The position numbers and the translations under genes were made by a program. A stretch of DNA of 26,450 nt from a virus: the IMG/VR virus record IMGVR_UViG_3300008107_000333, positions 1-26,450 of that record. One strand, 5' to 3'. Position 1 is the stretch's first letter, and every line of letters begins with the position of its first letter. Of the stretch, positions 1 through 15,963 are shown piece by piece. The notes under the pieces were generated by a model. The model had not been told where the DNA came from and searched no databases. It saw nothing but the letters and a program-made list of their open reading frames with translations.

Positions 1-60
1 AATAAGATTTTTCGTGAGAAGCGGCAAGTTCGGGTTGCAAGGAGGAGGACGAATGGATGA
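1..60 (+). CDS. 3' end of an upstream gene (partial, tentative)
   Basis: Frame 1 is open from the window edge to a TGA at 58-60 and would encode a basic C-terminus ending in RVARRRTNG. It overlaps the ATG of the next gene by 8 bases, the same kind of junction seen throughout the window. Only 19 codons are visible, so this may be chance. No function can be given. Confidence 0.3.
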   Translation, partial: NKIFREKRQVRVARRRTNG

Positions 61-256
61 GTTGAAGCTGATCGACACGAAGGCACTGGCTAGGCTTCTC
101 GATAAATCACCCAGTACGATCAAGCGTTGGCGGCGTGAAGGAAAGCTACCTCCACCGGGCACAGGATTTGGGAAAGATTACTGGACTGTAAAGCAGATTC
201 GAATTTGGTTGGACCAAAAGGGACTATTTGCGACCATGCCCCAAAATAGTGACTAG
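53..256 (+). CDS. Small helix-turn-helix protein, excisionase/AlpA-like
   Basis: A 67-residue protein that fits a MerR-superfamily winged helix-turn-helix. Residues about 5-30 (LIDTKALARLLDKSPSTIKRWRREGKLPPP) read as the helix-turn-helix, followed by a short wing and a C-terminal helix with W-x-V-K-Q-I-R-I-W-L. This pattern is typical of phage excisionases and AlpA-like regulators, which bind and bend DNA or control early and late transcription. The start at 53 is chosen over an upstream ATG-less extension because GGAGGAGG at 41-48 sits just 4 bases before this ATG. No integrase is visible next to it, so a purely regulatory role is as likely as excision. Family call is good; exact role is inferred. 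Confidence 0.7.
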   Translation: MDELKLIDTKALARLLDKSPSTIKRWRREGKLPPPGTGFGKDYWTVKQIRIWLDQKGLFATMPQNSD

Positions 257-323: not shown

Positions 324-638
324 ATGTACAGTTTTGAACCCAGGTTGCCGGTCAACTTTGTTCTTCAGTTGGTGAAGAATCTACGGTCAGGCGACTTTGA
401 TCGCGGTGACAATCTGCTTCTCGTCGGCGCTATCTCGGGTGAGATCGGTGCACTTCTGAAAACTGGTTTCGTTATCTCGCTTGGTGCGGAAGACGAACTA
501 CCGTCCACGATTGATGGTTGCTTGTTGGCACTCGACACGCTGACGACAGAAGACCCGACAGCAGCGTTTGACCCTTCGCTGTTGATTCCGATTGTCTTGA
601 AGTTGATTGAGCTATGGCTAGCTCGTCGAGGTGGCTAA
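324..638 (+). CDS. Hypothetical protein, hydrophobic C-terminal helix
   Basis: A 104-residue protein that I do not recognise. The middle is acidic and has a glycine-rich hydrophobic segment (LLLVGAISGEIGALLKTGFVISLG). The last 20 residues form a strongly hydrophobic helix ending in basic residues (SLLIPIVLKLIELWLARR), which could lie in or on a membrane. The ATG at 324 follows GAGG at 313-316. Its stop (TAA, 636-638) directly abuts the GTG of the protease gene, so the two are probably translated together. A membrane role in lysis is possible but unproven. The 67 bases before it hold no clear promoter. Confidence 0.6.
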   Translation: MYSFEPRLPVNFVLQLVKNLRSGDFDRGDNLLLVGAISGEIGALLKTGFVISLGAEDELPSTIDGCLLALDTLTTEDPTAAFDPSLLIPIVLKLIELWLARRGG

Positions 639-1556
639 GTGGATTACACAATCCCACCCGATACGATTTACAACAACGACCTGTTTGCAATGGCTCCTAG
701 GCTTTGGCACTGGACTTCTGAGCTAGCCGAAAAGGTTGGCAAGATTGCAACTGGCAAGTCGATTAAGATAGCGATCGGAGACACTGGCTACACGAAGCAC
801 GTTGATGGTCCTGAACCAGTCGCTGCGAAGTCGTTTATCTCGGGTCAGTCTGCACTTCGTGATGGCAACGGACATGGAACGCATTGTGCTGGAACAGCAC
901 TAGGACGCAATGGAATCGGTGTCGCTCCTGATGCTGAATTGATTGTCTTCAAGTGCCTAAGCGACCAGGGTAGCGGGTCATCGACTGGTATCGCAAACGG
1001 TATCCGATGGGCAGCCGAGCAAGGTGCGGATGTTATTAGTCTGTCTCTCGGTGGTGGTGGTTCGGACAACGAAACGAACCAGGCTATCGACTACGCTTTT
1101 AGCCTCGGGTGCATCGTGAACGCAGCCGCAGGCAACGCAGGCTACAACGGTTCAAACACGATTGGTTGGCCTGCACGATACAACGGTTGTCTATGCTGCG
1201 GTGCGTATCAAGCAAGTGGGCAGATTGCGAACTTCTCAAGCGGTGGGAAGGAACTTGACTGGGCTTGTCCAGGGCAAGACATCATCTCTTTTAGTAAGAA
1301 CGGTAGCGGCTACACGAGCATGTCAGGCACATCGATGGCAACTCCGTTTGGTAGCGGTTTGTTAGCGTGCATCGTCGAGGTGATGCGTCGGCAAGGAAAG
1401 CCACAATGGAAGGCTACGGATGCGGTTCGTGCCTTCTTTAAGGCGAATCTAAAGGACGCTGGTGCACCTGGTTTTGATCCAAGATTTGGTCACGGCATTC
1501 CTGTCGCTGACTCTCTGCTCCAATCGCTGCTGCGGTCGGAACTGTTATTGGCTTAA
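639..1556 (+). CDS. Subtilisin-like serine protease (peptidase S8)
   Basis: A 305-residue subtilase with the complete active site visible: Asp48 in IAIGDTG, His79 in GNGHGTHCAGT, oxyanion-hole Asn166 in AAAGNAG, and nucleophile Ser232 in SGTSMATP. The order and spacing are those of the S8 family, and the length matches a bare catalytic domain. I see no signal peptide and no propeptide, so it resembles intracellular subtilases and would need release by a holin or by lysis, or act in the cytoplasm or on virion proteins. It starts with GTG at 639 directly after the TAA of the preceding gene. Seven or so cysteines (for example NGCLCCG) are unusual for subtilases. Possible roles are digestion of a protein-rich host envelope, virion protein processing, or defence against host proteins; the sequence does not decide among them. 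Confidence 0.95.
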   Translation: MDYTIPPDTIYNNDLFAMAPRLWHWTSELAEKVGKIATGKSIKIAIGDTGYTKHVDGPEPVAAKSFISGQSALRDGNGHGTHCAGTALGRNGIGVAPDAELIVFKCLSDQGSGSSTGIANGIRWAAEQGADVISLSLGGGGSDNETNQAIDYAFSLGCIVNAAAGNAGYNGSNTIGWPARYNGCLCCGAYQASGQIANFSSGGKELDWACPGQDIISFSKNGSGYTSMSGTSMATPFGSGLLACIVEVMRRQGKPQWKATDAVRAFFKANLKDAGAPGFDPRFGHGIPVADSLLQSLLRSELLLA

Positions 1557-1582: not shown

Positions 1583-2263
1583 GTGGGAATGATTACCGAA
1601 TTATCGTTACAAGAACAAGTCGTCATCGGCGGCGAAAAGATTGCTGTTCACAAGTGGCAATTGAACAACCAACATTTGCAACAGTTTTGCTATGTGGTTT
1701 CTCGGTTACAGATGGCAATCCTTGAAATGGATTCCAACAACTCCACAGGTCAGATGGTTGTTGCTGACTCCGAGGCTATCAACTCCGATTGGACTCGTGC
1801 CAAGCTGGAGTGGGACTTGGCGAAGAAGTATCGTAATCTGGCACCTGCAGCGCAAGAAAAACTCTTGACTGTATTGGCAATCACAGACAACGAACAACTC
1901 AGGACTGGCAATGTCAAGTGCCGTCGAGTCATCACCGCTCTTTCGACTCTGATGCAAAAGATTCTGTTTAGTGACTCTGCCAAACTCCAGTACGGAATTG
2001 GTGACCGAGACATCACACGATTCGAAGAGCACATGCTTTACGTTGAAGAGCTGTTGCTGACCTACGTTGGTAACGGAACAGAGTTGAATACTGGGATTTC
2101 CATTCCTGCTCACGAGCATCTCGGTGTTGTTGTTCCACCCATCAACATGCACGAAGCGCAAATCTCGGAACCATCCCCAGGCTCAGTTGGTACTCCAAGC
2201 AAGGATTATCCTGATACTCCTTCGACTGTGCCACCTTCTGGCAATTCAACTCCAGTTAAGTAA
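1583..2263 (+). CDS. Hypothetical protein
   Basis: A 226-residue soluble protein that I do not recognise. Residues about 1-60 look like mixed strand and helix, 60-170 are mostly helical (for example TRAKLEWDLAKKYRNLAPAAQEKLLTVLA), and the last 40 residues are a Pro/Ser/Thr-rich tail likely to be disordered (PSPGSVGTPSKDYPDTPSTVPPSG). The GTG at 1583 is preceded by AAAGGTGA at 1571-1578; an ATG at 1589 two codons further in is an equally possible start. It lies between the protease and the first secreted protein with only 7 bases before the next start, so it belongs to the same transcription unit. Confidence 0.7.
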   Translation: MGMITELSLQEQVVIGGEKIAVHKWQLNNQHLQQFCYVVSRLQMAILEMDSNNSTGQMVVADSEAINSDWTRAKLEWDLAKKYRNLAPAAQEKLLTVLAITDNEQLRTGNVKCRRVITALSTLMQKILFSDSAKLQYGIGDRDITRFEEHMLYVEELLLTYVGNGTELNTGISIPAHEHLGVVVPPINMHEAQISEPSPGSVGTPSKDYPDTPSTVPPSGNSTPVK

Positions 2264-2270: not shown

Positions 2271-2969
2271 ATGAAACCCTTTTTGACGTTAGCAATATGG
2301 TCGCTTTGTTCGGTTGCGTTTGCGCAGGTCGAAGCGATTATTGTTGCACCAGATAAAGCACTGCCAGGAGAACTGGTGGTGCTTAACTCTAGCAAGTCGA
2401 AAGGGGACAATCACAAGTGGATTACACCTGAAGGAATCTCGACGGCACAAGCAGGATGCACGGCGATTGACTCGCAAGTATTCTTTGCAACTCCGCGAGC
2501 TGGCAGCTACACGTTCTATCTAATTGTCAGCGACAAGACGGCAGCGATTGACTACGCGAAGCATACGGTGGTGATTGGTGATTCGGTTATCAACCCTCCG
2601 AAACCTGAACCGCCGCCAGTCACTCAACCAGGCGACTTTGCGAAGCTGACGCAAATCAGCCGAGCGAACAGCTTAGCGTTGAACGACCCGAAGACGCGAG
2701 CTTCATTGTTAGCATCTCTGAAGCCTGTTGTTGCACAACTCAAATCGCTATGTGATTCGAATCAATGCCCAACTCTGGCCGCTGCACAATCTCGCTTTAT
2801 TGGCACGATGGAAGCTGTGTTACTGGCTCGCCCGCGAGGCGAATCGAGGGACGCAAATTGGGAAGAGGTTTGGCGACTGCCGAACGCTAAGTTTATTTCA
2901 GACTCGAAAATTACCAGCGTCACGACAGGCATTGCAGCCTATGACGCAATCGTGAAAGGATTGGAATAA
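2271..2969 (+). CDS. Secreted protein with PKD-like domain
   Basis: A 232-residue protein with a classical signal peptide: MKP, hydrophobic core FLTLAIWSLCSVAFA, likely cut before Q-V. Residues about 20-110 read as an immunoglobulin-like PKD domain, with P-G-E-L-V-V-L-N-S, a central K-W-I-T-P-E-G and the late Y-T-F-Y-L-I-V-S-D strand. A proline linker (NPPKPEPPPVTQPGD) leads to a helical C-terminal domain with two cysteines (LCDSNQCP). The ATG at 2271 is chosen because it gives the signal peptide; a longer reading from 2124 would run inside the previous gene. Export of a phage protein on its own signal is uncommon in tailed phages. A periplasmic role in wall binding or lysis is plausible but inferred. 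Confidence 0.75.
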   Translation: MKPFLTLAIWSLCSVAFAQVEAIIVAPDKALPGELVVLNSSKSKGDNHKWITPEGISTAQAGCTAIDSQVFFATPRAGSYTFYLIVSDKTAAIDYAKHTVVIGDSVINPPKPEPPPVTQPGDFAKLTQISRANSLALNDPKTRASLLASLKPVVAQLKSLCDSNQCPTLAAAQSRFIGTMEAVLLARPRGESRDANWEEVWRLPNAKFISDSKITSVTTGIAAYDAIVKGLE

Positions 2970-3217
2970 TGCTGAAAATCATCAACACGCTCATCGCTTT
3001 AGTCGTACTGAGTACGATTGGCTACTCGCAGGAAATCGAGTGTCAAAACGGTCGCTGTGACGTTGTTCGAAAAGCGGCATCTGTTGCGGTGGCTCCTGTT
3101 GTTGTCGCTGCCAATGTCGTCGAGGCTACGGCTGAAAACGTCAAGACAGTCGCATGCAAAGTGAAAGCGAAGCGAGTACCTCTACTCCAGAGATTCAGAA
3201 AGTTGTGCTGTAAGTGA
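2969..3217 (+). CDS. Small secreted cysteine-containing protein
   Basis: An 82-residue protein with an N-terminal signal peptide (MLKIINTLIALVVLSTIGYSQ, likely cut after YS-Q). The mature part has a C-x-x-x-x-C pair (IECQNGRCDVV), an alanine/valine-rich helix (about residues 35-62) and a basic end closing with two cysteines (RKLCCK). No lipobox is present, so it is not a clear outer spanin lipoprotein. It starts inside the stop of the PKD-like protein (TAATG) and its own stop overlaps the next GTG (GTGA), so three membrane-targeted products are made in series. Function unknown; a lysis or envelope role is inferred from the context. Confidence 0.65.
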   Translation: MLKIINTLIALVVLSTIGYSQEIECQNGRCDVVRKAASVAVAPVVVAANVVEATAENVKTVACKVKAKRVPLLQRFRKLCCK

Positions 3218-3519
3218 CAGTCGAACAGAACTCACTCACGGGCTGGATGTTGGCAGGTATTGCATCAGTGATAGCAACACTTACCTCAACTGTCGCATGG
3301 CTGTTCAAGCTTCGTGAGAACGAAAACGCAAAGCATATCGAAGGACTCAAGAACGAAGTCGCAACGATAAGCCTGAAAGCCGACAAGTGCGAAGTGGAAC
3401 GGGGTGATCTGAAAACGGAGTGTGCGTTGATGCGCGGAAAGATTGAAGTCTTAGAGACGAAGCTTGCGTTTATCGACGTCAACGGAACGAAGTACGCACA
3501 CAAGGACGATAAGAAATGA
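3214..3519 (+). CDS. One-pass membrane protein with coiled coil (holin/spanin-like candidate)
   Basis: A 101-residue protein with one transmembrane segment near the N-terminus (about residues 9-31, GWMLAGIASVIATLTSTVAWLFK) followed by a long charged helix with heptad-like spacing (about 32-92). This is the layout of an inner-membrane spanin or of small membrane-anchored partners of phage lysins, but I find no sequence motif that fixes the family. It starts with GTG at 3214 overlapping the previous stop, and its own stop overlaps the next start (ATGA at 3516-3519). Its position after two exported proteins supports a lysis cassette. It could instead be a membrane anchor of unknown function. Confidence 0.65.
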   Translation: MTVEQNSLTGWMLAGIASVIATLTSTVAWLFKLRENENAKHIEGLKNEVATISLKADKCEVERGDLKTECALMRGKIEVLETKLAFIDVNGTKYAHKDDKK

Positions 3520-3722
3520 CAAGCTTTTTTATCCCTCGCGGTCTGCGAATACGAGATACCGATAGTTCCGCAACAGGGATTGTATCCACGCTGGTAGTCA
3601 CCGATGGGACGCTAACGATTACCGACAGTACAGCGACATTGAACGTCCCAAGAATCACAGTCGGAACAGCGGCACCCAGCGGCGGAAACGACGGCGATAT
3701 TTACCTACAACACTCCCCTTAA
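3516..3722 (+). CDS. Small virion/tail-fibre-like protein
   Basis: A 68-residue protein rich in Thr, Ser and Val with alternating strand-like residues (VSTLVVTDGTLTITDSTATLNV). Its end, ITVGTAAPSGGNDGDIYLQ, matches the common phage fibre phrase 'VTVGTTAPSSPxxGDIW'. The ATG overlaps the preceding stop. It probably contributes a small beta-structured piece to tail fibres or the baseplate. The family resemblance is a motif-level judgement only. Confidence 0.6.
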   Translation: MTSFFIPRGLRIRDTDSSATGIVSTLVVTDGTLTITDSTATLNVPRITVGTAAPSGGNDGDIYLQHSP

Positions 3723-3736
3723 AGGAATAAAAAAGA

Positions 3737-4156
3737 ATGGCAATTCAGTTTAACGTTGCGACTCGCAACGCACGGCTTGATACGATTGAATCGACGAACG
3801 GAACATCTTGTTCGTTAGAGATTCGTTCGGGAACTGTTCCTGCAAACTGTGCAGCAACACGAACGGGAACGGTCCTTGCGACAATTAACCTTCCATCGGA
3901 CTGGATGGCAGCGGCGTCATCGGGTGCAAAAGCAATCGCTGGAACATGGCAAGATTTATCAGCCGATGCCACGGGAACGGCGGGCCACTTTTGCGTATAC
4001 AACTCGCAAGCTACGAAAGATGGAACGACTTGCTTTATCCAAGGCACAGTTACAGCAACCGGCGGAGGTGGTGATATGGAAGTTTCTTCGACTTCATTTA
4101 CCTCAGGTCAATCTTTCACTGTCAGCACGTTTACCCTGACTGACGGCAACGCTTAA
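3737..4156 (+). CDS. Putative virion structural protein
   Basis: A 139-residue, Thr/Ser/Gly-rich protein that looks all-beta, with four cysteines. The phrase MAIQFNVATRNARLDTIESTNGTS is typical of phage structural proteins annotated only as hypothetical in tail-fibre regions. AAAGGA about 11 bases before the ATG serves as a ribosome binding site. The 82 bases between this gene and the next (4157-4238) hold no hairpin or promoter that I can see, only AGAGG before the next ATG. Confidence 0.6.
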   Translation: MAIQFNVATRNARLDTIESTNGTSCSLEIRSGTVPANCAATRTGTVLATINLPSDWMAAASSGAKAIAGTWQDLSADATGTAGHFCVYNSQATKDGTTCFIQGTVTATGGGGDMEVSSTSFTSGQSFTVSTFTLTDGNA

Positions 4157-4238
4157 TTAGCAGCAATCAAAACAGAGATTGCCAAGCCTGAGTATCTAGA
4201 ATCATCGTAACACCAATGCCACCAGAGGCACAATAAAC

Positions 4239-5537
4239 ATGCTGCTAACTTCCACCAGCGATAAACTCCGATTGGTCACTGCCGTAGCTGGTGATGTTCG
4301 TGTGCAAGCTAGCTACGTGGATCTCTCCGGTAGCACAGTAACACCGGGTCGGCTCAACAGCTCGATTAGCACAGCAACCACGACGGATATAGTTGCAAGT
4401 CCTGCCAGTAGCACTCAACGGAAAATCAAGTACGTTTCTATTTGGAACGACTCCAGCAGTGCAACCAATTCCGTTACAGTGCAGCACACAGACGGAACGA
4501 CAGTTGTCGATATTTATGTCGTCAGTCTGCCGAGCCAATCTGGTTTGACCTACGTCGATGGACAGGGCTGGACTGTCATCGGCAATTCTCGACCGACCAA
4601 CATTCAAACCTTCAGTGCATCCGGCACTTGGAACAAGCCAACTAGCTTTAATGCGTCGGTGGTTTTAGTTCGCGTCTGGGGCGCAGGTGGTGGTGGTGGT
4701 GGAGGTTCCTCGCTTGCGACTGCGACAGTGACTAAAGGTGGAGGTGGCGGTGGTGGAGGATGTTTCGTTGAAAGGATATTTAGAGCATCTGACCTTGGAA
4801 ACGATGAGACTGTGACGATTGGTGCAGGCGGTTCTGTTGGTGCTGGTGGTACGGCAGGAGCAGCAGGTAGTGACGGTGGAATAGGAGGCAATACAACCTT
4901 CGGATCTCTTCTAACGGCCTACGGCGGTGGTGGCGGTCGGGGTGGGCAAATCTCGGCACTTGCAACCGGTGGCGGTGGAGGTGGCGGTGGTCACTCCGCA
5001 GGCACATCGGCAAGTGCTGCGGTTGGCGGCTCAGGCGGTCAGCCAGCGTCAGCAGGCCCCGGCTTCGACATGCAAGGCATCAACGGAACGATTGGTTCTG
5101 GCAGCACACATTACGCACCTCTTGGCGGCGGTGCTGGCGGAGGATCGTCCACAACCGCTGCTACCACGACGGGAGGCGGGGCGCTGTTCGGTGGTGGTGG
5201 TGGTGGCTCGGGAGGAGGTACGTCTGCGGTCCCTGCGGTCGTCGCCCCATCTGCTGGAGGCGGGCCTTCATCGAGTATTGGAACAGGAGGTGCGGCTGGT
5301 GCATCCGGCGGGCCTCCGACCGCAGGCGATGCAGGAGCACCAAGCAACGGACTGGTCGGTGGTGCAGGTGGTGGAGGTGGTGGTTCGACCGTTCAGGCTT
5401 CCACGAACGGAGCTGCAGGTGGTGCTGGCGGGCTTGGTGGTGGTGGAGGCGGTGGTGGTGGTCGTGGCAGCAATCCAGGACTTGGTGGTGCTGGTGGTGT
5501 CGGTGGTGCTGGATACTGTGTCGTAATCTCTTGGTGA
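4239..5537 (+). CDS. Glycine-rich tail fibre/adhesin-like protein, copy 1
   Basis: A 432-residue protein in two parts. Residues 1 to about 125 form a beta-sandwich-like module (SYVDLSGSTVTPGRLN, IKYVSIWNDSS, VQHTDGTTVVDIYVV) that occurs widely in phage virion proteins. From about residue 145 to the end it is glycine-rich, with many runs of 4-8 glycines, broken by short non-glycine stretches, ending in GYCVVISW. Such domains resemble the glycine-rich adhesin tips of phage fibres, where polyglycine helices pack together and variable loops bind the host receptor. Nothing enzymatic is visible. It is followed 3 bases later by a paralogue of the same layout. Family level call is good; receptor binding is inferred. 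Confidence 0.75.
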   Translation: MLLTSTSDKLRLVTAVAGDVRVQASYVDLSGSTVTPGRLNSSISTATTTDIVASPASSTQRKIKYVSIWNDSSSATNSVTVQHTDGTTVVDIYVVSLPSQSGLTYVDGQGWTVIGNSRPTNIQTFSASGTWNKPTSFNASVVLVRVWGAGGGGGGGSSLATATVTKGGGGGGGGCFVERIFRASDLGNDETVTIGAGGSVGAGGTAGAAGSDGGIGGNTTFGSLLTAYGGGGGRGGQISALATGGGGGGGGHSAGTSASAAVGGSGGQPASAGPGFDMQGINGTIGSGSTHYAPLGGGAGGGSSTTAATTTGGGALFGGGGGGSGGGTSAVPAVVAPSAGGGPSSSIGTGGAAGASGGPPTAGDAGAPSNGLVGGAGGGGGGSTVQASTNGAAGGAGGLGGGGGGGGGRGSNPGLGGAGGVGGAGYCVVISW

Positions 5538-5540
5538 AAA

Positions 5541-6836
5541 ATGTACTTAACCACAACCAGCGACAAAATCAGAGTCACGACGAGTTCAGCGAACAGCGTC
5601 CTAGTTCACGCTTCTTACGTGGACCTGTCTGGAAGTACGGTCACACCGGGCAGGCTTAACACCAGCATAGCAGCAGCAACCACAACTGATGTAGTCGTCA
5701 GCCCCAGTGGAAGCGACACCCGAGTTGTAAAGTTTCTATCGGTCTGGAACGACCATGCATCAGCGGCTCAGACAATTACAGTTTTGCACACAGACGGAAC
5801 AACTACAGCGGATTTGTGGAGTGGTAGTGTTCCTGCTCAGTCGGGATTGATATTCGACGACTCGATTGGGTGGAAAGTATCCAGTCCTTTTCCCTCGGCC
5901 GACATCCAGACTTTTGACTACCCAGGTGGGGATTGGATCAAGCCTACTGGTCCACGCACAGGATTAACTTTGGTACGGCTTTGGGGAGGTGGAGGTGGTG
6001 GTGCCGGCGGGGCCTCTCTTGCTACGGCAGCGGTCGCAAAAGGCGGCGGTGGCGGCGGTGGAGGCGGGTGTATCAGTCAGCTTTTCCTGACGGAAGAACT
6101 GCCTGACACCTTGCGTGTGAACATCGGTTTTATGGGGCTGGGTGGTGCTGGTGGGCTTGCAGGTGCAGCAGGCTTTTCCCCGACCTCTGGCGGCAATTCG
6201 GTTGTGCGATCCCCGACAACAATTTTTTTAACAGCCTACGGCGGTGCTGGCGGCATAGCAGGGCAGATTACAGCTACGGCTACAAGCGGCGGGACAGGAA
6301 GTGGAATCCACAACGTCACCGGAGTAGTGTCTGGTGTGGCAGCATCGGGGCAAGGGGTATCGGGCAGCAACTCAAGTGCATTCGGCCCTGCATGGGAAGG
6401 CGGCGGTGGGGGCGGCGGTTCAAACAACAGTGCGACCGTACCTTTGGTGACCGCAGGTGGCAATTCTCGATTTGGCGGTGGTGGCGGCGGCTCAGGCGGG
6501 TGTCACAGCAACGTCCCTGCCAACGTAGACGCATCGGCTGGCGGTGGCACTGGCAACAGTGTTGGAGCTACAGCGGGCGGGCTTGGCGGTGTAGCTGGCA
6601 CGAGCGGCGCATCTCCAACGGCAGGAGCAAACGGCATCGATACTAACGGCATCGTAGGTGGCACTGGTGGAGGTGGTGGAGGCACAACTGTCACAGCTTC
6701 AACGGCTGGAGCAAACGGTGGCAACGGTGGCAAGGGTGGAGGCGGCGGCGGCGGCGGCGGTGTCGGCATGAACCCCGGCATCGGCGGTGCAGGTGGCAAC
6801 GGAGGCAACGGCTACGGAATCATCATCTCATGGTAG
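5541..6836 (+). CDS. Glycine-rich tail fibre/adhesin-like protein, copy 2
   Basis: A 431-residue paralogue of the preceding gene with the same layout. The N-terminal module (SYVDLSGSTVTPGRLNTSI, VWNDHASA, VLHTDGTT) aligns along its length, and the C-terminal glycine-rich part ends in GNGGNGYGIIISW. The glycine runs are conserved while the loops between them differ (for example SQLFLTEELPDTLRVNIGFMGL against the ERIFRASDLGNDETVTIGAGG of copy 1). This is the pattern expected of duplicated receptor-binding tips that have diverged. Its stop overlaps the next ATG by 7 bases. Confidence 0.75.
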   Translation: MYLTTTSDKIRVTTSSANSVLVHASYVDLSGSTVTPGRLNTSIAAATTTDVVVSPSGSDTRVVKFLSVWNDHASAAQTITVLHTDGTTTADLWSGSVPAQSGLIFDDSIGWKVSSPFPSADIQTFDYPGGDWIKPTGPRTGLTLVRLWGGGGGGAGGASLATAAVAKGGGGGGGGGCISQLFLTEELPDTLRVNIGFMGLGGAGGLAGAAGFSPTSGGNSVVRSPTTIFLTAYGGAGGIAGQITATATSGGTGSGIHNVTGVVSGVAASGQGVSGSNSSAFGPAWEGGGGGGGSNNSATVPLVTAGGNSRFGGGGGGSGGCHSNVPANVDASAGGGTGNSVGATAGGLGGVAGTSGASPTAGANGIDTNGIVGGTGGGGGGTTVTASTAGANGGNGGKGGGGGGGGGVGMNPGIGGAGGNGGNGYGIIISW

Positions 6837-7027
6837 ACCGATGGGCATTACTCACAGCAGCAGGTCACGTCTTCAACGTGTGCGTTTGGGATGGGGTTGA
6901 AGTTTGGACTCCACCGAGCTTTTTGACTGTGATTGAGTGCCCTGACTACGCTGGCCCAGGTTGGCAATACGTCGATTTAGTGTGGTCTTTAATACCTCCT
7001 CCTCCTGAAGAAGGTGGGGGCGACTGA
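6830..7027 (+). CDS. Small hypothetical protein, possible fibre accessory
   Basis: A 65-residue protein rich in Trp and Pro (WALLTAAGHVFNVCVWDGVEVWTPP) with a C-terminal PPPPEEGGGD tail. The opening resembles small phage proteins that begin with an ordinary 'xxAxV.NvivwDG' strand-turn-strand and sit beside fibre genes. It overlaps copy 2 at its start (ATGGTAG) and shares one base with the next gene (TGATGG). Possible fibre chaperone or small virion protein; not recognised with certainty. Confidence 0.55.
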   Translation: MVDRWALLTAAGHVFNVCVWDGVEVWTPPSFLTVIECPDYAGPGWQYVDLVWSLIPPPPEEGGGD

Positions 7028-7872
7028 TGGCACGGATTGGGGCATTTGATCGACATCTAGAACCGTTAGCTTGGTGGGAAGTAGAACTGCTTCCTGCGGG
7101 TTGGTACGTCGATGAATTGCTCGTCGAGCCAGCGGCTGGTGGTGTTACAGGAACGGTAACACGCACGTTGGATGCGGCAACTTTGTCCTCGTCGGGCACG
7201 TTGGCAAGTGGGTTGACTGGTACGGTATCAGTTACGTTAGCCGATGCCACATTGTCTGGAACTGGTACAGTTTCAGCCGGTGCTTCTGGTACAGTATCTC
7301 GCACATTAGATGCAACGCTATCATCGTCGGGTACGGTTGCTGCCGGTGCGTCTGGAACAGTATCTCGCACGCTGGACAACGCAACACTATCCTCCACAGG
7401 TGGTGCGGCTGGCTCAGTAACAGGTTCAGTTTCGGCAACCCTGGCGGCTGCTACTTGCTCGTCATCTGGTACGCTTGCGGCTGGTCTAAGTGGTAGCGTC
7501 ATAAGAACACTGGATGCCGTTACTTCTTCAGCAACTGGCACAGTAACCAACGGTGCATCAGGTAGCGTCACACGAACCCTTGCGAACGCTACGCTAGCTT
7601 CAGGTGGTTCGTTAAGTGCCGGGCTAACGGCACAAGTAAACCGAGCACTAGAGTCGTGCGTTGTCTCCGCATCTGGTACGCTGGCAAGTGGGTTGACTGG
7701 TACGCTATCGGTTCAGCTTGCATCAGCTACACTGCAAAGCGGAAACATAGCAGTAGGTGGCTTGCGTATCAAAGTCGGCGGCGAGTGGAAGAATGCAAAT
7801 GCGTTTGTCAAAGTCACAGGCAGTTGGAAGAACGCAACACCTTTTGTTAAAGTCAGCGGGGTTTGGAAGTAA
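7027..7872 (+). CDS. Repeat-containing fibre protein with W-K C-terminal motifs
   Basis: A 281-residue protein. Residues 1-41 form a Trp-rich head (PLAWWEVELLPAGWYVDELLV). Residues 42-245 hold eight full units and one partial unit of about 23 residues with the pattern G-T-V-S-R-T-L-D-x-A-T-L-S-S-S-G-T-L-A-A-G-L-S, likely a stack of beta strands forming a shaft. The last 36 residues contain three short copies of V-x-V-x-G-x-W-K, a C-terminus common in phage tail proteins. It shares one base with the preceding stop. A fibre shaft is the best guess. Cysteine appears in only two units. No enzyme motifs are seen. Confidence 0.7.
   Translation: MARIGAFDRHLEPLAWWEVELLPAGWYVDELLVEPAAGGVTGTVTRTLDAATLSSSGTLASGLTGTVSVTLADATLSGTGTVSAGASGTVSRTLDATLSSSGTVAAGASGTVSRTLDNATLSSTGGAAGSVTGSVSATLAAATCSSSGTLAAGLSGSVIRTLDAVTSSATGTVTNGASGSVTRTLANATLASGGSLSAGLTAQVNRALESCVVSASGTLASGLTGTLSVQLASATLQSGNIAVGGLRIKVGGEWKNANAFVKVTGSWKNATPFVKVSGVWK
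7150..7761 (+). repeat. Tandem 69-bp coding repeat, eight full units plus one partial
   Basis: The coding sequence of the repeat protein contains units of 23 codons; the third is 22. Units are diverged at DNA level except for 23 identical bases shared by the end of unit 1 (7202-7224) and unit 8 (7682-7704), starting TGGCAAGTGGGTTGACTGG. The retained identity across 480 bp suggests recent recombination or gene conversion between outer units. Confidence 0.85.
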
Positions 7873-7875
7873 ACT

Positions 7876-8541
7876 ATGGCAATCGTAACCTACACCAACT
7901 CAAATCCTGGCACGATAGTAGATTGCTTTCCTGTCGCTGGCTCGCTCGCGAATTGGTTGACGCAAAAGGTAAGACTCACCGAAGGCACTGCACCAGATAC
8001 AGGACGCTGGACGGGTGATTTGTTCGCAGGCAACTGGGCAGTGTTTGAAGGTGGTACAACTCCAAGCAGTTTCTCGGCTAGCGTGGGTACGTTCTTTGTC
8101 GAAGCTATTTCGGATAGCCAAATCACGCTCTTGGACCCTGCTTGCGGTGAAGGTGTCAACCTGTCACATACGAGTCTCGTCAGGGACTTTACGATATTCC
8201 AAGGCGCTTACTGGGAGTCGGTGCCTATCTCGTTTGTCGATACGGCTGGCGTCTATATCGATTTAAGCCAAATCGTGTTTCGCGGGCAAGCACGAAGGGA
8301 CTTAGGTCCGTCCACTGGGATAGCTTACTCGTTCACGTTTACTGTTTCGATTGCAGACCCGAACAAGCATACTGTGACGGTCTCTCTTGCTGCGACAACG
8401 ACGGACGCTTTGACGGTCGGAAAAACGGTAAAAGATAAAGACTCGATTTTCTACTACGACTGGGAAGTGGTCGATACGCTTGGTCGTCCGCACAGATTCA
8501 TGAAGGGCAGAAATTTCATAGACAGGAACGCGACACGATGA
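7876..8541 (+). CDS. Hypothetical virion-associated protein
   Basis: A 221-residue protein that I do not recognise by family. It appears beta-rich, with aromatic strand patterns (GRWTGDLFAGNWAVFEG, AYWESVPISFVDTAGVYIDLSQIVFRGQARRD). The phrase FVDTAGVYIDLSQIVFRGQ..., followed by YSFTFTVSIADPNKHTVTVSLAATTTDAL and KDSIFYYDWEVVDTLGR, strongly resembles the small beta-domains of phage tail and baseplate upper proteins. The ATG follows the previous stop by 3 bases, and the stop overlaps the spike gene (ATGA). It may be an adaptor for the spike that follows. Confidence 0.6.
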   Translation: MAIVTYTNSNPGTIVDCFPVAGSLANWLTQKVRLTEGTAPDTGRWTGDLFAGNWAVFEGGTTPSSFSASVGTFFVEAISDSQITLLDPACGEGVNLSHTSLVRDFTIFQGAYWESVPISFVDTAGVYIDLSQIVFRGQARRDLGPSTGIAYSFTFTVSIADPNKHTVTVSLAATTTDALTVGKTVKDKDSIFYYDWEVVDTLGRPHRFMKGRNFIDRNATR

Positions 8542-10985
8542 GTTTTATCGAAGGTGAAATTACGGTTGAGTTCGGTGGTACTGTCGGACCTGCTGGGCCT
8601 GCGGGCAACGCTGTGCCGATTGCTGCTGGTACGGTGCTGGCTAATCCGAGCGGGGTGCTTGCGAATCCTGTGGGGGTGGATGCGGCTGGGATGAGGGACT
8701 TAATAGGCTTAGGATCACTTGCTAGAGTCTCAGACCGCATGGAAGTTGGATCAAACGCAGACCCTGTTAATCTTCGAGGGTTCGGATATGCGCGAGGAGA
8801 TAAAGGTCTTTGGTCAAACGGTGTTTATCCGCACGGTTCATCTGGGCAACCCGGCGTGACTTCGTTCGAAAACCCTGTCACTCGTCAAATGCTTGGAGAC
8901 GGAAGCGGCTATAGCTATGCGTTTGCAAAGAAGGTGGGTGGAGTAACAACCGACGTATGGACAATTGATGAAAACGGAAAGAACGTCCTCTCACTTACGC
9001 AACACTCAGGATATGCAACCGGATCACTTCCTGCGGCTGCATCAAACGAAGGTGGGCAAACCTACGATACGACTCTCGATGTTCCTGTTTTTTCTCAAGG
9101 AACAAGCTGGAAGCCTATCGTTAATCCATACGCAACAAGTTCTAGAGCCACAACAAACCTCAACACGTTACTAACTGCTTGGCAAGCTGACGCGGCGTGT
9201 CTGGAAATCGTTATAGATTCCCCAGTCGTCTGTAATACAAATGTGACGATATCGAAGCCAGTTCGCTTCCTGAGCGGAGGAACGATAACAGGAACCGCAA
9301 CGATTACGTTTTCAAATACGTTAGAGGCACCAAGCCACGACTTCATTTTCCAACAAACTGGTATTTCGTTTACCGGCGACGTTGTTGCTAGGATCTATCC
9401 CGAATGGTTTGGAGTGAACGGAACCACAGATAGTGCTTCATTTACGAAAGCCGTCAACGCCGCAGTGCAAAGCGGTGCCGTTTTACAGATCGACAGGGAT
9501 ATTGATCTTTCCGATTTAGCTTCGCCCATCTCCATTACTGGGTCAATACACCTAGATGGAACAGGCACAATTACGGGACCATCAACGAGCGTTGATTGCT
9601 TCGAAGTTGGAAGCACAAGCGGAGCAAAAATCACTTGCGACAATCTTTCGTTTAGCACCTTTAGTGCTGTGTTCAACTTCACGAACAACACTGCATCAAC
9701 ACCCTTCTCCTTGTCGTCTCGCTACGTCAAAACAAACAACACTGGACGTGGGCTTACTGGATCTGGAGGTGGTGTTTACTGGGATGCGGATTTTGTAATA
9801 ATCGTTGGTGCACAAATCAACAACGCTGGAAAACTTGCGGCCTCCACCAAGGCAATAGCAATCGATCTGTCGCTGCGAAATTGTCGATCTACATCGGTGA
9901 CAAATTGCACAATAACAAACGTCGGTTCAGTAAGTAACACGAATCAAGTTGGAGCTATTCAAGTAGACTTTAGCGGAACACCAGATCCTTCACAGGGTGT
10001 TACGATATCAGACAACCGTATCTACAACGTGGTTTCAGGTGGTAGTGTCGGTCAGGTGTTTGGAATTCTAGCTCTCAGTTGTCACGCTTCGATTGTTTCG
10101 AACGTAGTCGATACGGTTGTAGCTGATTCCAATTCATCGAGCCCTGAAGGTATCTACGTTAAGTGTTCGAAGTCTCTGATTAGTTCGAACATCGTGCTTG
10201 ATGTTGTTGGGTCCGAAGCAGTGATCAACATGAAGGGCGAGTTGACTGGAGATCTGAGTTCCGAGAAAAGCCTATGCACCGGAAATGCGGTGATGTTTCG
10301 GACGAACCCTGGGGCTGTGGCATCAACTGGCATTAACTTAGGGGCACCGAATATCCTGTGTTTAAATAACTATCTTATTGGGCTCAATCGAGGGATAACT
10401 GCCCTTTACAGTGCCGAGATCGTCGGAAACACGCTCGCTAACTTACGATCGATCGGAGTGGAAGTGCTTCCGGTGGTTGACAATACATTCGTTGTTGTGA
10501 AGAACAATACTTTCCGTAGCATTGGCGTAAGTGGTGCCAATTCCTGGGGCGTGTTTTACACGCTCAACGAACCTCTAACGGCTGCAATGCTTGAGGTGTC
10601 TAGCAACACTATGACGCAATTTGTTGGATCAGATCATTTTGGTTGTAGACTGTTTATGTTGTCCACTTCTGGAGGACTCGACAACCTAATTTTTGCTAAC
10701 AACATAGTAGCAAACTCCAACAACGGAATAAACGTCAACGCGGTCACTGGTGGGATAGTCAATACGATCTCTTGTGCTAATAACACAATACATGATGGAA
10801 CACCATATTCTAGTTCGGCTACTTCGGTGGCATCAACTATTCAAGGCAACACGTTAAATGGTTCGTTATGGTCTGGAAACGACAAGGGATCGGCAGTAGC
10901 TAACGCAACGGACGCGGCATCGGTAATTGCGAGGCTGAATGACTTACTGTCGCAACTTAGAACACGGAACGTGATAGCAACGTGA
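8538..10985 (+). CDS. Probable tail spike with right-handed beta-helix
   Basis: An 815-residue protein. The first 60 residues hold a short collagen-like stretch (VGPAGPAGNA) and a fibre-style adaptor (AAGTVLANPSGVLANP). Residues about 90-200 are mixed. From about residue 220 to 790 there are many spaced strands with asparagine ladders (SVTNCTITNVGSV, VTISDNRIYNVVSGG, CHASIVSNVVDTV, EIVGNTLANLRS, VVKNNTFRSIGV, LIFANNIVANSNNGINV), the signature of pectate-lyase-like beta-helices. IYPEWFGVNGTTDSASFTKAVNAA at about 288 is the usual entry to phage spike beta-helices. Spikes of this type bind and often cut host surface polysaccharide. Catalytic residues cannot be assigned from sequence alone. Confidence 0.85.
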   Translation: MSFIEGEITVEFGGTVGPAGPAGNAVPIAAGTVLANPSGVLANPVGVDAAGMRDLIGLGSLARVSDRMEVGSNADPVNLRGFGYARGDKGLWSNGVYPHGSSGQPGVTSFENPVTRQMLGDGSGYSYAFAKKVGGVTTDVWTIDENGKNVLSLTQHSGYATGSLPAAASNEGGQTYDTTLDVPVFSQGTSWKPIVNPYATSSRATTNLNTLLTAWQADAACLEIVIDSPVVCNTNVTISKPVRFLSGGTITGTATITFSNTLEAPSHDFIFQQTGISFTGDVVARIYPEWFGVNGTTDSASFTKAVNAAVQSGAVLQIDRDIDLSDLASPISITGSIHLDGTGTITGPSTSVDCFEVGSTSGAKITCDNLSFSTFSAVFNFTNNTASTPFSLSSRYVKTNNTGRGLTGSGGGVYWDADFVIIVGAQINNAGKLAASTKAIAIDLSLRNCRSTSVTNCTITNVGSVSNTNQVGAIQVDFSGTPDPSQGVTISDNRIYNVVSGGSVGQVFGILALSCHASIVSNVVDTVVADSNSSSPEGIYVKCSKSLISSNIVLDVVGSEAVINMKGELTGDLSSEKSLCTGNAVMFRTNPGAVASTGINLGAPNILCLNNYLIGLNRGITALYSAEIVGNTLANLRSIGVEVLPVVDNTFVVVKNNTFRSIGVSGANSWGVFYTLNEPLTAAMLEVSSNTMTQFVGSDHFGCRLFMLSTSGGLDNLIFANNIVANSNNGINVNAVTGGIVNTISCANNTIHDGTPYSSSATSVASTIQGNTLNGSLWSGNDKGSAVANATDAASVIARLNDLLSQLRTRNVIAT

Positions 10986-11164: not shown

Positions 11165-11535
11165 GGTTTTGTAGGTGTGGAAAAGTTCTGAAAAACGGAG
11201 AAAGTTGCAAGGACTGTAAACCGGAAGCAAGGAAGACAAAGGAAAAAGGTTATGGATCGGATCATAGAGCAGCGAGCGAACGACACAGAAAAAACTATCC
11301 ATTGTGTGAAAGGTGCATAATGGTAGTTGGAGTCGAGGCCGCAAATATAAGCGAGCACATGCATCACATTATTGCAGTAAAAGACGATGAATCCAGGCGA
11401 ATGAACTTCGATAACTGGCTCGCTGTCTGTGTGCCGTGCCATGACATCCTGGAGGGTGATTCACTGGCAGGGTTAGAGGTTAAGCAGTGGAGCAATCAGC
11501 ACTATATTGACGCATTGAATGAAGGACTATCGTAA
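11161..11535 (+). CDS. HNH endonuclease beside terminase
   Basis: A 124-residue zinc-type HNH nuclease. The N-terminus has a zinc ribbon-like C-x-C ... C-x-x-C (FCRCGKVLKNGESCKDC). The HNH core reads LCERC, then EHMHHIIAV, then N-x-D-N-W-L-A-V-C-V-P-C-H-D, with both metal-binding CxxC pairs and the catalytic His pair present. In HK97-like phages, an HNH protein next to terminase stimulates terminase cutting at the packaging site. The TTG start at 11161 is chosen because GGGGAGG (11146-11152) sits 8 bases upstream and because it makes a TTGA overlap with the preceding frame; an ATG at 11131 has no such site. It ends in TAATG with the small terminase gene. Confidence 0.9.
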   Translation: MRFCRCGKVLKNGESCKDCKPEARKTKEKGYGSDHRAASERHRKNYPLCERCIMVVGVEAANISEHMHHIIAVKDDESRRMNFDNWLAVCVPCHDILEGDSLAGLEVKQWSNQHYIDALNEGLS

Positions 11536-12023
11536 TGGCAAGACCTAGAAAAGATCCCGCAGTATTAGAAGCGTCTGGAGCTTACGTAAAAGATCCGCAA
11601 CGCAGACCAAAGGACATGCCAAAGTATGTGCAAGGTGCACCAGACATGCCGGATATCGTTGCGGAAAACGCTAACGCAACATGGTATTGGAATTGGTGTT
11701 GCCAGGTGCTTGGTGATGCTGGAGTTTTAACAACGGCATGCGCTCCTTTACTAACCATGCACGCTTTAGACTGGGCTCAATTAATGTGGCTTTACTCGGA
11801 ATGCAAGGAAGGCAATGTAGCAACCGTTGGGGCGACAGGCGGACCTATCACTAAACCTGAAGCGACTCAGTTACACATGCACGCAAACAGATTTTTAAAA
11901 GAGCTTACCGAGTTTGGTCTTACTCCGGCTAGCAAGTCAAAGATCGTCGCGGTAGGAGGCAAAAAGGAATTTGATCCATTCGCTGAAATGCTGCTAAGGA
12001 GGATGGGACCAAAGCCAAACTAG
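11535..12023 (+). CDS. terS: Terminase small subunit (P27 family)
   Basis: A 162-residue protein of the P27-type small terminase family. It opens MARPRKDPAVLEASGAYVKDPQRRPKD, a basic DNA-contacting head typical of the family. The middle is helical (ATWYWNWCCQVLGDAGVLTTACAPLLTMHALDWAQLMWLY) and the end has the usual FLKELTEFGLTPASKSKI phrase. It recognises phage DNA and brings it to the large subunit. The ATG overlaps the HNH stop by one base, and one base separates its stop from the large terminase gene. Confidence 0.9.
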   Translation: MARPRKDPAVLEASGAYVKDPQRRPKDMPKYVQGAPDMPDIVAENANATWYWNWCCQVLGDAGVLTTACAPLLTMHALDWAQLMWLYSECKEGNVATVGATGGPITKPEATQLHMHANRFLKELTEFGLTPASKSKIVAVGGKKEFDPFAEMLLRRMGPKPN

Positions 12024-12024
12024 C

Positions 12025-13737
12025 ATGATCTGCTCTACACCAACAAAGCAACGTGTTCACAAGTACCTAGAGGATGTTCTCGACGGTTCGATCGTTGCTG
12101 GAAAGTTGGCTATTGCGGCGTGCAAGAGACATCTCGCAGACTTGGAACGAATCGGAAACGCAGATTTTCCGTACTACTTCGACGAGAACGAAGCGGACGA
12201 TATGTGTAACTTCTTTCCGATGGCATTGCGTCATTCAAAAGGTAGTAAGTTCGCTGGCCATCCGTTTCATCTGGAACCGTGGCAGTTGTTTATCGTGTGG
12301 AGTCTATACGGATGGAAACGAACCGCAGATGAGACGCGACGATTTCGGTATGCACATCTAAGCTTTGGACGCAAGAACGGAAAATCCACACTTGCGGCAG
12401 GTTTTGCGTTGATAGGTTTGGTAATGGATCGCGAGCCAGGTAGCGAAATTTACATTGCAGCAACGAAGAAGGATCAAGCCAAGTGTGTGTTCGACGAAGC
12501 TGTTCGCATGAGGACTTCTAACGAGTCCTTGAAAGGCATGGTAAAAAGCCACATAAACAGGCTTTTTGTTCCAGAAACAAACTCTTTTTGCTGCACAACT
12601 GCTAGCGATAAACCATTAGATGGACCGAATCCACACTACGTTATCTTCGACGAGCTGCACGCATGGCGCAAGCAGCATCGAAAGTATTACGACACGATGG
12701 TTACAGGTTCGGCATCTAGAACTCAGCCTCTCCAGATAGAGATCACAACATACGGAGACGATCAAAGTGAAATTTGGCTAGAGACGTTGCAGCTTTGCAA
12801 GTCTATATCACTTGGTAGCGTGGTCGATGAATCCAAATTCGTTTTTATCGCTGCGATCGATGACGAGGACGATCCGTTTAATCAAGACTGCTGGATTAAG
12901 GCTAATCCTAATCTAGGAATATCGGTTTCTTTGGACTACTTACAGCAACAAGCAACAGACGCAAAGAACAAACCAAGCTTCTACAAGACGTTTCTATCGA
13001 AGCACATGCAAAGGATCACAAGTTCTTCGCAACGTGCAATCGAAAAAGAAGTATGGGACTGTGCAAAATCGGAGTTGTCTGATTGGACCCAAGCGGATGC
13101 GATTGGCATAGGTATCGACGTTGGAGCGAGAGACGACTTTGCAGCCTATGGCACCTGCGCTAGGTTTCTGGTTGGAGAGGAAACTATTGTTGACGAGAAC
13201 GAAGGCGAAAAGGTTGTTCCGATCTATCGTTACGAAGTCAAAGCGAAAGCTTACATGGCATTCGATACCATTCGCGATTTGACTGTGGAACCATTCGCGG
13301 GTTGGATCTACAACGAGCACATGCATTCAGCACAGCAGCCGCTAATTAAGATGAGGACAGACATTCTCAACGAGATGGAAGAGTTTGGAATAACGACGGC
13401 AGCGTACGATCCTAGTAACGCAAAGCTTCTCGCAGAAGAAATAATTTCAGGTGGATTCCAGGCTGTCAGCATGGCACAAAAAGCTTATATGTTCAACGAA
13501 CCTATTCGCGAGTTTCTGCACTTGCTAAAGATTGGACGCATTAAGCACGACGGTCATCCTGTCCTGTCATGGATGGCAACCAATGCGATTATCGTTAAGG
13601 ACGCTGACGACAAGTGGCGTTTCGATAAGGGAAACTCTAATGATAAGATAGACATGATTGTGTCGGTTGTTATGGCGTTTCGTGTGTGTTGTTTAGCTCA
13701 GTCTAGGTATCTCTCAGCTCCACAGGTGTTGTTCTAA
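12025..13737 (+). CDS. terL: Terminase large subunit
   Basis: A 570-residue packaging motor. Adenine-binding entry lies at HPFHLEPWQLFIVWSLYGWK (about 79-98); Walker A-like GRKNGKST is at 115-122; Walker B VIFDELHAW with Asp209-Glu210; the coupling TTYGDD follows at about 241-246. The nuclease domain starts with GIGIDVGARDDFAA (Asp365 as first metal ligand) and includes AAYDPSNA and the late NDKIDMIVSVVMA with an acidic residue. It hydrolyses ATP to drive DNA into the prohead and cuts concatemers. The order HNH-TerS-TerL-portal-protease-capsid is the HK97 head order. It overlaps the portal start by one base. Confidence 0.96.
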   Translation: MICSTPTKQRVHKYLEDVLDGSIVAGKLAIAACKRHLADLERIGNADFPYYFDENEADDMCNFFPMALRHSKGSKFAGHPFHLEPWQLFIVWSLYGWKRTADETRRFRYAHLSFGRKNGKSTLAAGFALIGLVMDREPGSEIYIAATKKDQAKCVFDEAVRMRTSNESLKGMVKSHINRLFVPETNSFCCTTASDKPLDGPNPHYVIFDELHAWRKQHRKYYDTMVTGSASRTQPLQIEITTYGDDQSEIWLETLQLCKSISLGSVVDESKFVFIAAIDDEDDPFNQDCWIKANPNLGISVSLDYLQQQATDAKNKPSFYKTFLSKHMQRITSSSQRAIEKEVWDCAKSELSDWTQADAIGIGIDVGARDDFAAYGTCARFLVGEETIVDENEGEKVVPIYRYEVKAKAYMAFDTIRDLTVEPFAGWIYNEHMHSAQQPLIKMRTDILNEMEEFGITTAAYDPSNAKLLAEEIISGGFQAVSMAQKAYMFNEPIREFLHLLKIGRIKHDGHPVLSWMATNAIIVKDADDKWRFDKGNSNDKIDMIVSVVMAFRVCCLAQSRYLSAPQVLF

Positions 13738-15260
13738 TGGCAAATCCATTCAAGCATTTAATCGACTGGCTAGGGATAGAATACAGGGACAGAATAACCC
13801 CAAGCCAAGCTATGAGCCTTCCGCCTTTTTGGTATGGGGTGAACAAGATAACAGGCCACTGTGCAAGATTGCCGTTGTTTCTCAAAAGACAGCTTCCACG
13901 CGGCGGGCAAGACAAGCAAGAACAACACTGGGCGTATGATTTGCTTTTGACAAGGCCAAATGGATACCAGACTGCGGACACTTTCAAACAACAATTGACT
14001 GGTCACGCCATAATGTGGGGTAACGGTCGAGCTGTCATTGTCAATCGAGGTACACCATTTGCGGAGTTGATACCACTCCTTCCAGATAGAACTGGAACTG
14101 TAATGATGGATGGTGTGAAAATCCACGTTACTAAGCCGGAGAAGGAGGACAGGCTTTTGCTTTTCGAATCGGTAATGAATGATAGCCAGGGAACTATGAT
14201 GTTTCTAGATTCTGACGTTATCCATATCCAGGGTTTTGGATTTGATGGAGTCGAAGGGCTTTCGATGGTTAGCCAAATGAAAAGGACTTTAGGTATCCCA
14301 ACAGAGCAAGAATCCCACGCTTACAACCAAACGAAAAAAGGTTTCGTTGCCAAAATGATTGTAGAAGCTCCACCAGGAATGTTGACAAAGGAGGCAGACG
14401 CAAAAGAATGGATCGATGGATTCAATAAGGCAAACTCCAGCTCTGACAATGCTGGCCGTGCAGCTTTGTTGCGAAACGGAATGAAGGCAACCGCCTTATC
14501 AATGAGCAATTCCGATTCGCAGTTTTTAGAGCAACGCAGGTTTAGCCGACAGGACATAGTTTTGATGCTAGGGCTAGATGGTATGCCGGGAGACGGAGAC
14601 AGCCATAGCTATAATTCAAAAGTCATGGAGTCTCTAAATTACCTTGACACAGGACTCGCTCCTTGGTTGTGTAAATTCGAGATGCAAGTTGACGATAAAC
14701 TCTTGACGGCCAGCGAACGCCGCCGAGGTTTCTTCTCAATGTTCGACTTGTCGGAATTGCTGCGAACTGACCCAAAGACGCAAGCTGAGATCCACGCACT
14801 TCGATTAGCGAATCGAGTATTTAACGCAAATGAGTGCAGAGAGGAGCTAGGTCGCAACCCATACGTTGGTGGAGACGAGTACATCAACCCAGCAATCAGT
14901 CAATCAGATTCTGCAGCAGAGGAAAGAGCCGATACCAACGCCGTTGAGTCGCAACTAAAGCACATGGTGAGAGTTGAGTCTAAGAGAGTTATTCAGCACG
15001 CGAACGACAAGAATTTTTTATCTTGGATGGATGGATGGTACTCGGATTGGCAATCAACATTAGCGGACAAGCTAGAGGATTTAGGACTTAGCCGGGACGC
15101 AGCGGAAAAACACTGTGCGGAGTCTAAAAGACAACTAATCGAAGCCACGGAAAGCAAGCCAGATGAGTTTCGCAATACGTTGGAAAATTGCGTAAATACC
15201 TGGGAAAACAGGATTTTTTCTATCATAAACTACAAGGAAAACGAAAAATGCTTAACGTAA
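13737..15260 (+). CDS. Portal protein (HK97 type)
   Basis: A 507-residue portal protein of the HK97 family. Characteristic phrases are PPFWYGVNKITGHCARLPLFLKR (about 31-53), the clip-region segment around DLLLTRPNGYQTADTFKQQLTGHAIMWGNGRAVIVN, and FSRQDIVLMLGLDGMPGDGDSHSYNSKVMESLNYLDTGLAPWLCKFE. It forms the dodecameric ring at the head vertex through which DNA passes. The C-terminal 90 residues are charged and helical. It starts in the TAATG junction with the terminase and overlaps the protease gene by 13 bases. Confidence 0.93.
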   Translation: MANPFKHLIDWLGIEYRDRITPSQAMSLPPFWYGVNKITGHCARLPLFLKRQLPRGGQDKQEQHWAYDLLLTRPNGYQTADTFKQQLTGHAIMWGNGRAVIVNRGTPFAELIPLLPDRTGTVMMDGVKIHVTKPEKEDRLLLFESVMNDSQGTMMFLDSDVIHIQGFGFDGVEGLSMVSQMKRTLGIPTEQESHAYNQTKKGFVAKMIVEAPPGMLTKEADAKEWIDGFNKANSSSDNAGRAALLRNGMKATALSMSNSDSQFLEQRRFSRQDIVLMLGLDGMPGDGDSHSYNSKVMESLNYLDTGLAPWLCKFEMQVDDKLLTASERRRGFFSMFDLSELLRTDPKTQAEIHALRLANRVFNANECREELGRNPYVGGDEYINPAISQSDSAAEERADTNAVESQLKHMVRVESKRVIQHANDKNFLSWMDGWYSDWQSTLADKLEDLGLSRDAAEKHCAESKRQLIEATESKPDEFRNTLENCVNTWENRIFSIINYKENEKCLT

Positions 15261-15877: not shown

Positions 15878-15903
15878 CAATCGACACAGATACGGTATAC
15901 AAT
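15874..15903 (+). promoter_or_regulatory. Predicted sigma70-type promoter for the capsid operon
   Basis: A perfect -35 box TTGACA (15874-15879) is followed after 16 bases by TATACA (15896-15901), or after 18 bases by TACAAT (15898-15903). The -35 overlaps the protease stop. The 11-mer GATACGGTATA (15889-15899) recurs at the second promoter near 26356, also overlapping its -10. Transcription would begin around 15908-15910, right before a hairpin. It separates capsid and tail genes from the terminase-portal genes for higher expression. Confidence 0.7.
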
Positions 15904-15910
15904 AAAAAAA

Positions 15911-15925
15911 GCGGTGGAAAACCGC
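15911..15925 (+). promoter_or_regulatory. Hairpin at the predicted 5' end of the capsid mRNA
   Basis: GCGGT pairs with ACCGC around a GGAAA loop, flanked by A7 before and A6 after. On the + strand there is no U tract, so it is not a terminator for the head genes; on the minus strand the same sequence is followed by seven Ts and could end antisense transcripts. Because it begins 1-3 bases after the predicted start, a 5'-end protective stem that stabilises a very abundant mRNA is the best guess. An 11-base direct repeat AATCGACACAG flanks it (15879-15889 and 15935-15945). Confidence 0.5.
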
Positions 15926-15963
15926 AAAAAATTTAATCGACACAGTTATCTGATTGCAACTCG

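Follow-up and report, generated by a model that had tools for sequence, protein, structure and literature searches.

Phage lysis is usually described in terms of endolysins that cut peptidoglycan. In holin-endolysin-spanin cassettes, genes for membrane/coiled-coil and exported proteins lie close to the beginning of the late block, and the same is true of the cassette described here; it departs from these systems in that a true protein protease takes the place of the peptidoglycan hydrolase, that there is no lipobox protein and that the pore former is putative. The protease shares its full Asp-His-Asn-Ser catalytic domain with subtilisin DY/Carlsberg and the intracellular serine proteases (MEROPS S8/PF00082; PHROG 3677), and like the intracellular subtilisins it has no signal peptide, but it is unlike these enzymes in that the propeptide is wholly absent and that its gene belongs to a fixed cassette with genes for a small helical, an exported PKD and a membrane protein. 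Subtilases are already known from phages: those of Moorella phage MTATph1 and of Bacillus phages SP-15, Goe3 and Goe8 also lack a signal peptide and are distant homologues (33-39% identity to our protein and 40-46% to a jumbo-type member). Their genomic settings, however, differ from that of the cassette, and neither its exported PKD protein nor its membrane/coiled-coil protein has a homologue in GenBank phages. In open-licence PMC papers we found no description of phage subtilases as lysins, of planctomycete phage lysis or of such a cassette, and the main text of a survey of lytic proteins from prokaryotic viruses (PMC12596118) mentions neither subtilisin nor planctomycetes.

The cassette lies in IMG/VR record IMGVR_UViG_3300008107_000333, the whole of which (26,450 bases) is called the window below. 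Its features are collected in Table 1.

Table 1. Genes and gene blocks of the window
Feature	Position	Strand	Remarks
Helix-turn-helix (excisionase/MerR-like) protein	14..256	+	PF12728 4.6e-7; PHROG 66 1.1e-8
Small 104-aa four-helix protein (predicted), hydrophobic C-terminal helix FDPSLLIPIVLKLIELWLARRGG	324..638	+	Stop abuts subtilase GTG
Subtilase (S8, predicted), catalytic domain only	639..1556	+	GTG start, 305 aa; PF00082, PHROG 3677, PDB
226-aa protein, optional cassette member	1583..2263	+	Whole-record comparison
Sec-exported protein (predicted): signal-type N-terminus, PKD domain, Pro-rich linker, five-helix C-terminal domain	2271..2969	+	
82-aa protein, signal-type N-terminus, basic C-terminus, no lipobox	2969..3217	+	Homologues in G001-G004 and others
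101-aa membrane protein: one TM, then coiled coil	3214..3519	+	A3 alignment; KD maximum residues 13-31
Tail-fibre/adhesin genes	3516..10985	+	Gly_rich_2; head/tail fibre PHROGs
Terminase, portal, ClpP head protease, capsid, tail tape-measure	11535..24636	+	Structural block

The subtilase gene

The product of the gene at 639-1556 is, by its sequence, a member of S8 and a predicted protease. PF00082, the only Pfam family found in it, matches over all 288 profile positions (E 1.6e-43), and the Pfam search returned no muralytic catalytic domain; PHROG 3677 ('protease') matches at 2e-53, and the best PDB match is a subtilisin (1bh6, E 3.5e-45). Asp48, His79, Asn166 and Ser232 do not vary when the protein is aligned with nine homologues that are 67-99% identical to the window subtilase. 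A chance ORF or a wrong reading frame is ruled out by the Pfam and PDB matches and by these residues. The alignment with mature subtilisin runs from query residue 38 (chain residue 22) onward, the N-terminus of the window protein being the counterpart of that of the mature enzyme; the signal peptide and the propeptide of about 70 aa found in secreted precursors are absent, and the N-terminus has no hydrophobic stretch. An earlier, sequence-only reading of this DNA had described a complete S8 protease lacking both segments and had called such a protein rare in tailed phages, and both statements hold: tblastn matches were obtained in 31 of 50,697 GenBank phage records, every one below 60% identity. 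Among the 2.9 million contigs of IMG/VR, at least 106 stretches encode relatives of the window subtilase, and eight contigs carry close ones (67-98% identity).

Genes around the subtilase

Since the GTG start of the subtilase gene directly follows the stop of the gene at 324-638, the two are predicted to be translationally coupled. The small upstream protein was modelled as four helices (pLDDT 77), and a fold search with this model gave no structural match. By profile comparison, the small proteins from different phage types form one family: the family of the window protein, A9, is homologous to A10, which occurs in other phages (prob 94 and E 8.5e-8 in hhalign), and, more weakly, to A11, the jumbo-phage family (prob 82 and E 1e-5), while a direct comparison of A10 with A11 was not significant. 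The subtilases of Bacillus phages Goe3 and Goe8 (L390:5947-6927 and L391:5971-7017) carry a hydrophobic cationic tail at the C-terminal end (...FLFKLFLLLLSSRRGK and ...LLLFRLILLLLRNNKPRK, respectively), which recalls the C-terminal helix that window-type cassettes have on a separate small protein. Further upstream, the helix-turn-helix protein, a possible regulator of the cassette operon, has homologues at the same side of the cassette in G001, G002, G003, G004, G005 and G007.

Downstream of the subtilase, the gene for the 226-aa protein is present in the window, G002, G006 and G007 and missing in G001, G003, G004 and G005; its product is 96-99% identical among carriers (99% between the window and G006) and has no Pfam or PHROG match. 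The sequence-only reading had also noted, in this block, a membrane/coiled-coil protein besides two exported ones, and we agree: the products of 2271-2969 and 2969-3217 have signal-type N-termini, and that of 3214-3519 has a predicted TM segment at about residues 13-31 followed by a coiled coil. The AlphaFold model of the larger exported protein (pLDDT 85) comprises a signal segment, a PKD domain, a linker and a helical domain. Its PKD beta-sandwich matches a collagenase PKD domain with Z 10.7 and an rmsd of 2.5 over 80 residues, and we regard the PKD assignment as solid; the PF22352 match (1.8e-4) lies under the curated cut-off of that family. The five-helix C-terminal domain carries a conserved W..WR (A2 alignment). 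Inspection of both exported sequences revealed no lipobox, and with none in the 82-aa protein no classical o-spanin is seen. The membrane/coiled-coil protein has an architecture like that of a holin or i-spanin, and its homologue at L048 weakly matches a PHROG 'holin' family (5e-4). In the candidate pore protein the amphipathic helix is short, and no PHROG holin family matches it.

Conservation and exchange of the cassette

Neighbour clustering of the best 80 of at least 106 subtilase stretches in viral contigs revealed a recurrent set around the subtilase, namely small helical, exported PKD and TM/coiled-coil proteins. As predicted from these sequences, the conserved cassette pairs the subtilase with three other proteins: one small and helical, one Sec-exported with a PKD domain, and one with a TM segment and a coiled coil. 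When loci were collected from the exported protein, a subtilase was present in 43 of 45, and when they were collected from the A10 small-protein family, in 22 of 23. Two of the exceptions, L221 and L417, are on one contig, ending just upstream; in the third, L239, a matrixin stands instead of the subtilase. The carriers are mostly uncultivated tailed phages. Exported proteins of the jumbo type (A4) were found at five loci only, all already in the set of subtilase phages.

The gene for the matrixin of L239 (M10, PF00413 3.6e-21) is the second one upstream of that for the exported protein. Like the window subtilase, the matrixin is encoded in the same kind of setting: it is a protease encoded beside an exported PKD and a small helical protein; unlike the subtilase, it is a zinc protease of unrelated fold, whose N-terminal domain is PG_binding_1-like and whose PRCGVTD motif resembles the MMP cysteine switch. 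The gene between the matrixin and the exported protein encodes a di-haem cytochrome c peroxidase (CCP_MauG 2.5e-54); matrixin and peroxidase lie at L239:1304-3104, on a tailed-phage contig. Of the 30 cassette records, 5 had matrixin matches, against none of 36 control contigs, three of the five being below the curated cut-off (weaker matches occur in G002, G017 and G022), and this points to a second class of true proteases associated with cassette phages. At L236:3302-4069, a gene for a matrixin-like metalloprotease lies directly upstream of the subtilase gene.

In a whole-record comparison, the structural genes of the window were common at the DNA level to G003 only, whereas the DNA that the window has in common with G006, G007, G001, G002 and G005 consists of parts of about 1-8707 and includes zero structural genes. 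Shared cassette and fibre DNA next to unrelated structural genes indicates that cassette and fibre genes are swapped as one unit between phages. G006, for instance, is a 70-kb phage that has the cassette and fibres in common with the window and, at the DNA level, not the structural genes; it also contains an ORF of 4,513 aa (17588-31129, L018:17588 to L019:11629). Within the fibre region of the window, 7027-7872 encodes a fibre-like protein with repeated GTVSRTLDNATLSS-type units, whose length ranges from 281 to >600 aa among relatives. In G003 the cassette is located between the early genes and the fibre-terminase block, a position similar to that of the lysis genes of lambdoid phages.

Some further genes of these phages deserve mention. 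At 25763-26284 the window encodes an Erv1/Alr-family sulfhydryl oxidase-like protein (PF04777 1.6e-7), which is unusual in a tailed phage; the match is stronger in G003 (1.5e-10), and homologues occur in G001, G006 and G007. At L022:11281-11972 of G003, a CsrA-like small protein adjoins a RimI-like GNAT acetyltransferase, of which G001, G006 and G007 have homologues.

Search for lysins

No lysin is recognisable in the window, as the sequence-only reading had remarked: Amidase_2, Phage_lysozyme, M23, SLT and M15_4 were all unmatched. The window being a single 26,450-base record, this alone proves little. Among relatives, no endolysin was found in G003, in G007 or among the families listed for G006. 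The first of these is essentially complete (40.5 kb, with ends that overlap by 276 bp at 96% identity). A Pfam scan of 40 of its proteins gave 14 families and zero lysins, and a PHROG scan of 40 proteins gave no lysin among the 25 of 54 families listed; ten proteins of unknown function were without a PHROG match. For G007, none of 18 Pfam families is a lysin, and for G006 none of the 25 families listed out of 30.

Across the 30 cassette records (1.95 Mb), the same five families were without any match. As controls we used 36 IMG/VR contigs of >25 kb, drawn by an arbitrary 15-mer and of completeness not known, which were searched with Amidase_2, lysozyme and M15_4, while M23 and SLT were applied to the cassette records only. 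Amidase_2 matched 4 of the controls, lysozyme 7 and M15_4 a single one, and 11 of the 36 contigs had at least one of the three; against 0 of 30 this gives a Fisher p of 6e-4, a value that is optimistic, the cassette records being related to one another. Such depletion is support for, not proof of, missing endolysins, and a lysin of an unrecognised family may exist in cassette phages. Relatives of the window-type terminase that lack the cassette were too few, too short or too distant for a gene-replacement comparison.

Possible hosts

The sequence-only reading had suggested that a protease working as a lysin would suit a host with a protein-rich wall, such as a planctomycete. This premise is outdated, since planctomycetes possess a peptidoglycan sacculus that is sensitive to lysozyme (PMC4432640). 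Among 392 planctomycete genomes, no close copy of the subtilase was found, the subtilases there being only distant, and the exported protein gave weak PKD matches only. A planctomycete prophage was rejected on these results and on the chromosomal settings of the subtilases inspected. The sole planctomycete lead is a 6.3-kb contig of a Gemmataceae MAG, on which a 38%-identical subtilase follows an exported protein near an HNH gene; from this sequence, a distant relative may infect the Gemmataceae group. For the window phage itself, the apparent link to a planctomycete host is weak. The chromosomal planctomycete subtilases that we looked at (L404-L410) are short, about 313-357 aa, mostly without a signal peptide, and several adjoin pilus-assembly or UvrA-like genes.

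Discussion

We tentatively read the gene set at 324-3519 as a protease-based lysis cassette, that is, one that would breach the envelope, a reading that we think plausible while doubting it slightly more than we believe it. What the sequences suggest is a lysis- or envelope-directed module, short of a proven lysis system. Several lines of evidence favour the reading: the linkage of the subtilase to the exported and A10 proteins, the conservation of the small protein across phage types, the missing lysin families, the matrixins of cassette records, and the position of the cassette in G003 together with the weak holin match of the TM family. It is weakened by the candidate pore protein and the 82-aa protein, which lack a PHROG holin match and a lipobox, respectively. 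It must also be considered that a subtilase alone should not cut peptidoglycan, and that the Bacillus phages with a distant subtilase presumably have ordinary endolysins too. Of the earlier proposal that the protease acts as a lysin, the envelope-directed cassette and the absence of the tested lysin families thus stand, and the protein-rich wall does not.

In the scheme that we infer for the timing of lysis, membrane passage, the substrate and the role of each partner, the subtilase would be synthesised in the cytosol as no more than its catalytic domain. Access to the envelope would be governed, in a holin-, anchor- or silencer-like manner, by the small helical protein, whose C-terminal helix is hydrophobic, and by the membrane/coiled-coil protein. 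The Sec-exported PKD protein would have its site of action in the periplasm or at the outer membrane. There, as infection ends, the subtilase would digest envelope proteins; it would take both the genomic place and the role of endolysin-spanin genes. A wider proposal, which spans the subtilase, or the matrixin in one case, together with the coupled small helical protein and the Sec-exported PKD protein, is that in cassette phages true proteases have taken over from peptidoglycan hydrolases, that lysis is proteolytic and needs no classical endolysin, and that the genes concerned are mobile with the tail fibres; we hold this to be possible but distinctly doubtful.

Other readings place the protease elsewhere. 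It could be a surface protease, carried by the virion or released at lysis, that serves adsorption or the spread of progeny by digesting surface or matrix layers made of protein, much as capsule depolymerases do. The exchange of cassette and fibre genes as one DNA segment between phages of unrelated structural genes is in line with this, and the link to fibre genes is compatible with a surface role too. In the jumbo-like contigs L080, L084-L088 and L110, moreover, the subtilase sits among conserved genes downstream of what was judged from sequence to be a baseplate-J-like gene, and in Bacillus phages Goe3 and Goe8 its gene is near one for a poly-gamma-glutamate hydrolase. However, a surface role leaves unexplained both the missing lysins and the tight linkage to a Sec-exported and a membrane protein, and we consider it rather unlikely. 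Less probable in our view is that the subtilase works in the cytosol against host or defence proteins, with the small protein as its chaperone or inhibitor. The missing signal peptide and the coupled small upstream gene would suit such an enzyme, as would the resemblance (36-45% identity) to short planctomycete proteases encoded beside housekeeping genes and the location of the Moorella phage MTATph1 homologue among replication genes, but in window-type phages the subtilase is linked to envelope proteins and to the fibre-late block, and its co-occurrence with the exported protein is near-complete.

It is improbable that the lytic enzyme is another member of the cassette, the exported protein with its five-helix domain being one candidate, and that the subtilase merely activates or assists it. 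The exported protein does nearly always accompany a subtilase, and its five-helix domain has barely been compared with known folds, PKD matches filling the structure-match list; yet neither Pfam nor PHROG links it to any lysin, and in L239 the exported protein is kept while a matrixin stands in for the subtilase, so that a protease is retained in both arrangements. Least of all do we expect a protease of virion morphogenesis. Phage heads are processed by proteases and the subtilase gene adjoins the late block, but a gene for a ClpP-type protease (15245-15877, PF00574 6.6e-22) already lies between the portal and capsid genes, which makes the virion maturation role raised in the sequence-only reading less likely and a head-maturation subtilase unlikely; besides, the cassette is common to phages with unrelated structural genes.

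If the lysis reading is true, these phages would use an undescribed route, in which a subtilisin-type protease helps to burst the host cell. A mobile cassette of a protease, an exported and a membrane protein, in phages from which the tested lysins are absent, would point to an alternative way of opening the envelope; it would also direct attention to hosts whose envelopes depend on protein and to a new supply of proteases that act on envelopes. Should its role lie at the virion surface instead, the cassette still defines a conserved protease module in uncultivated phages.
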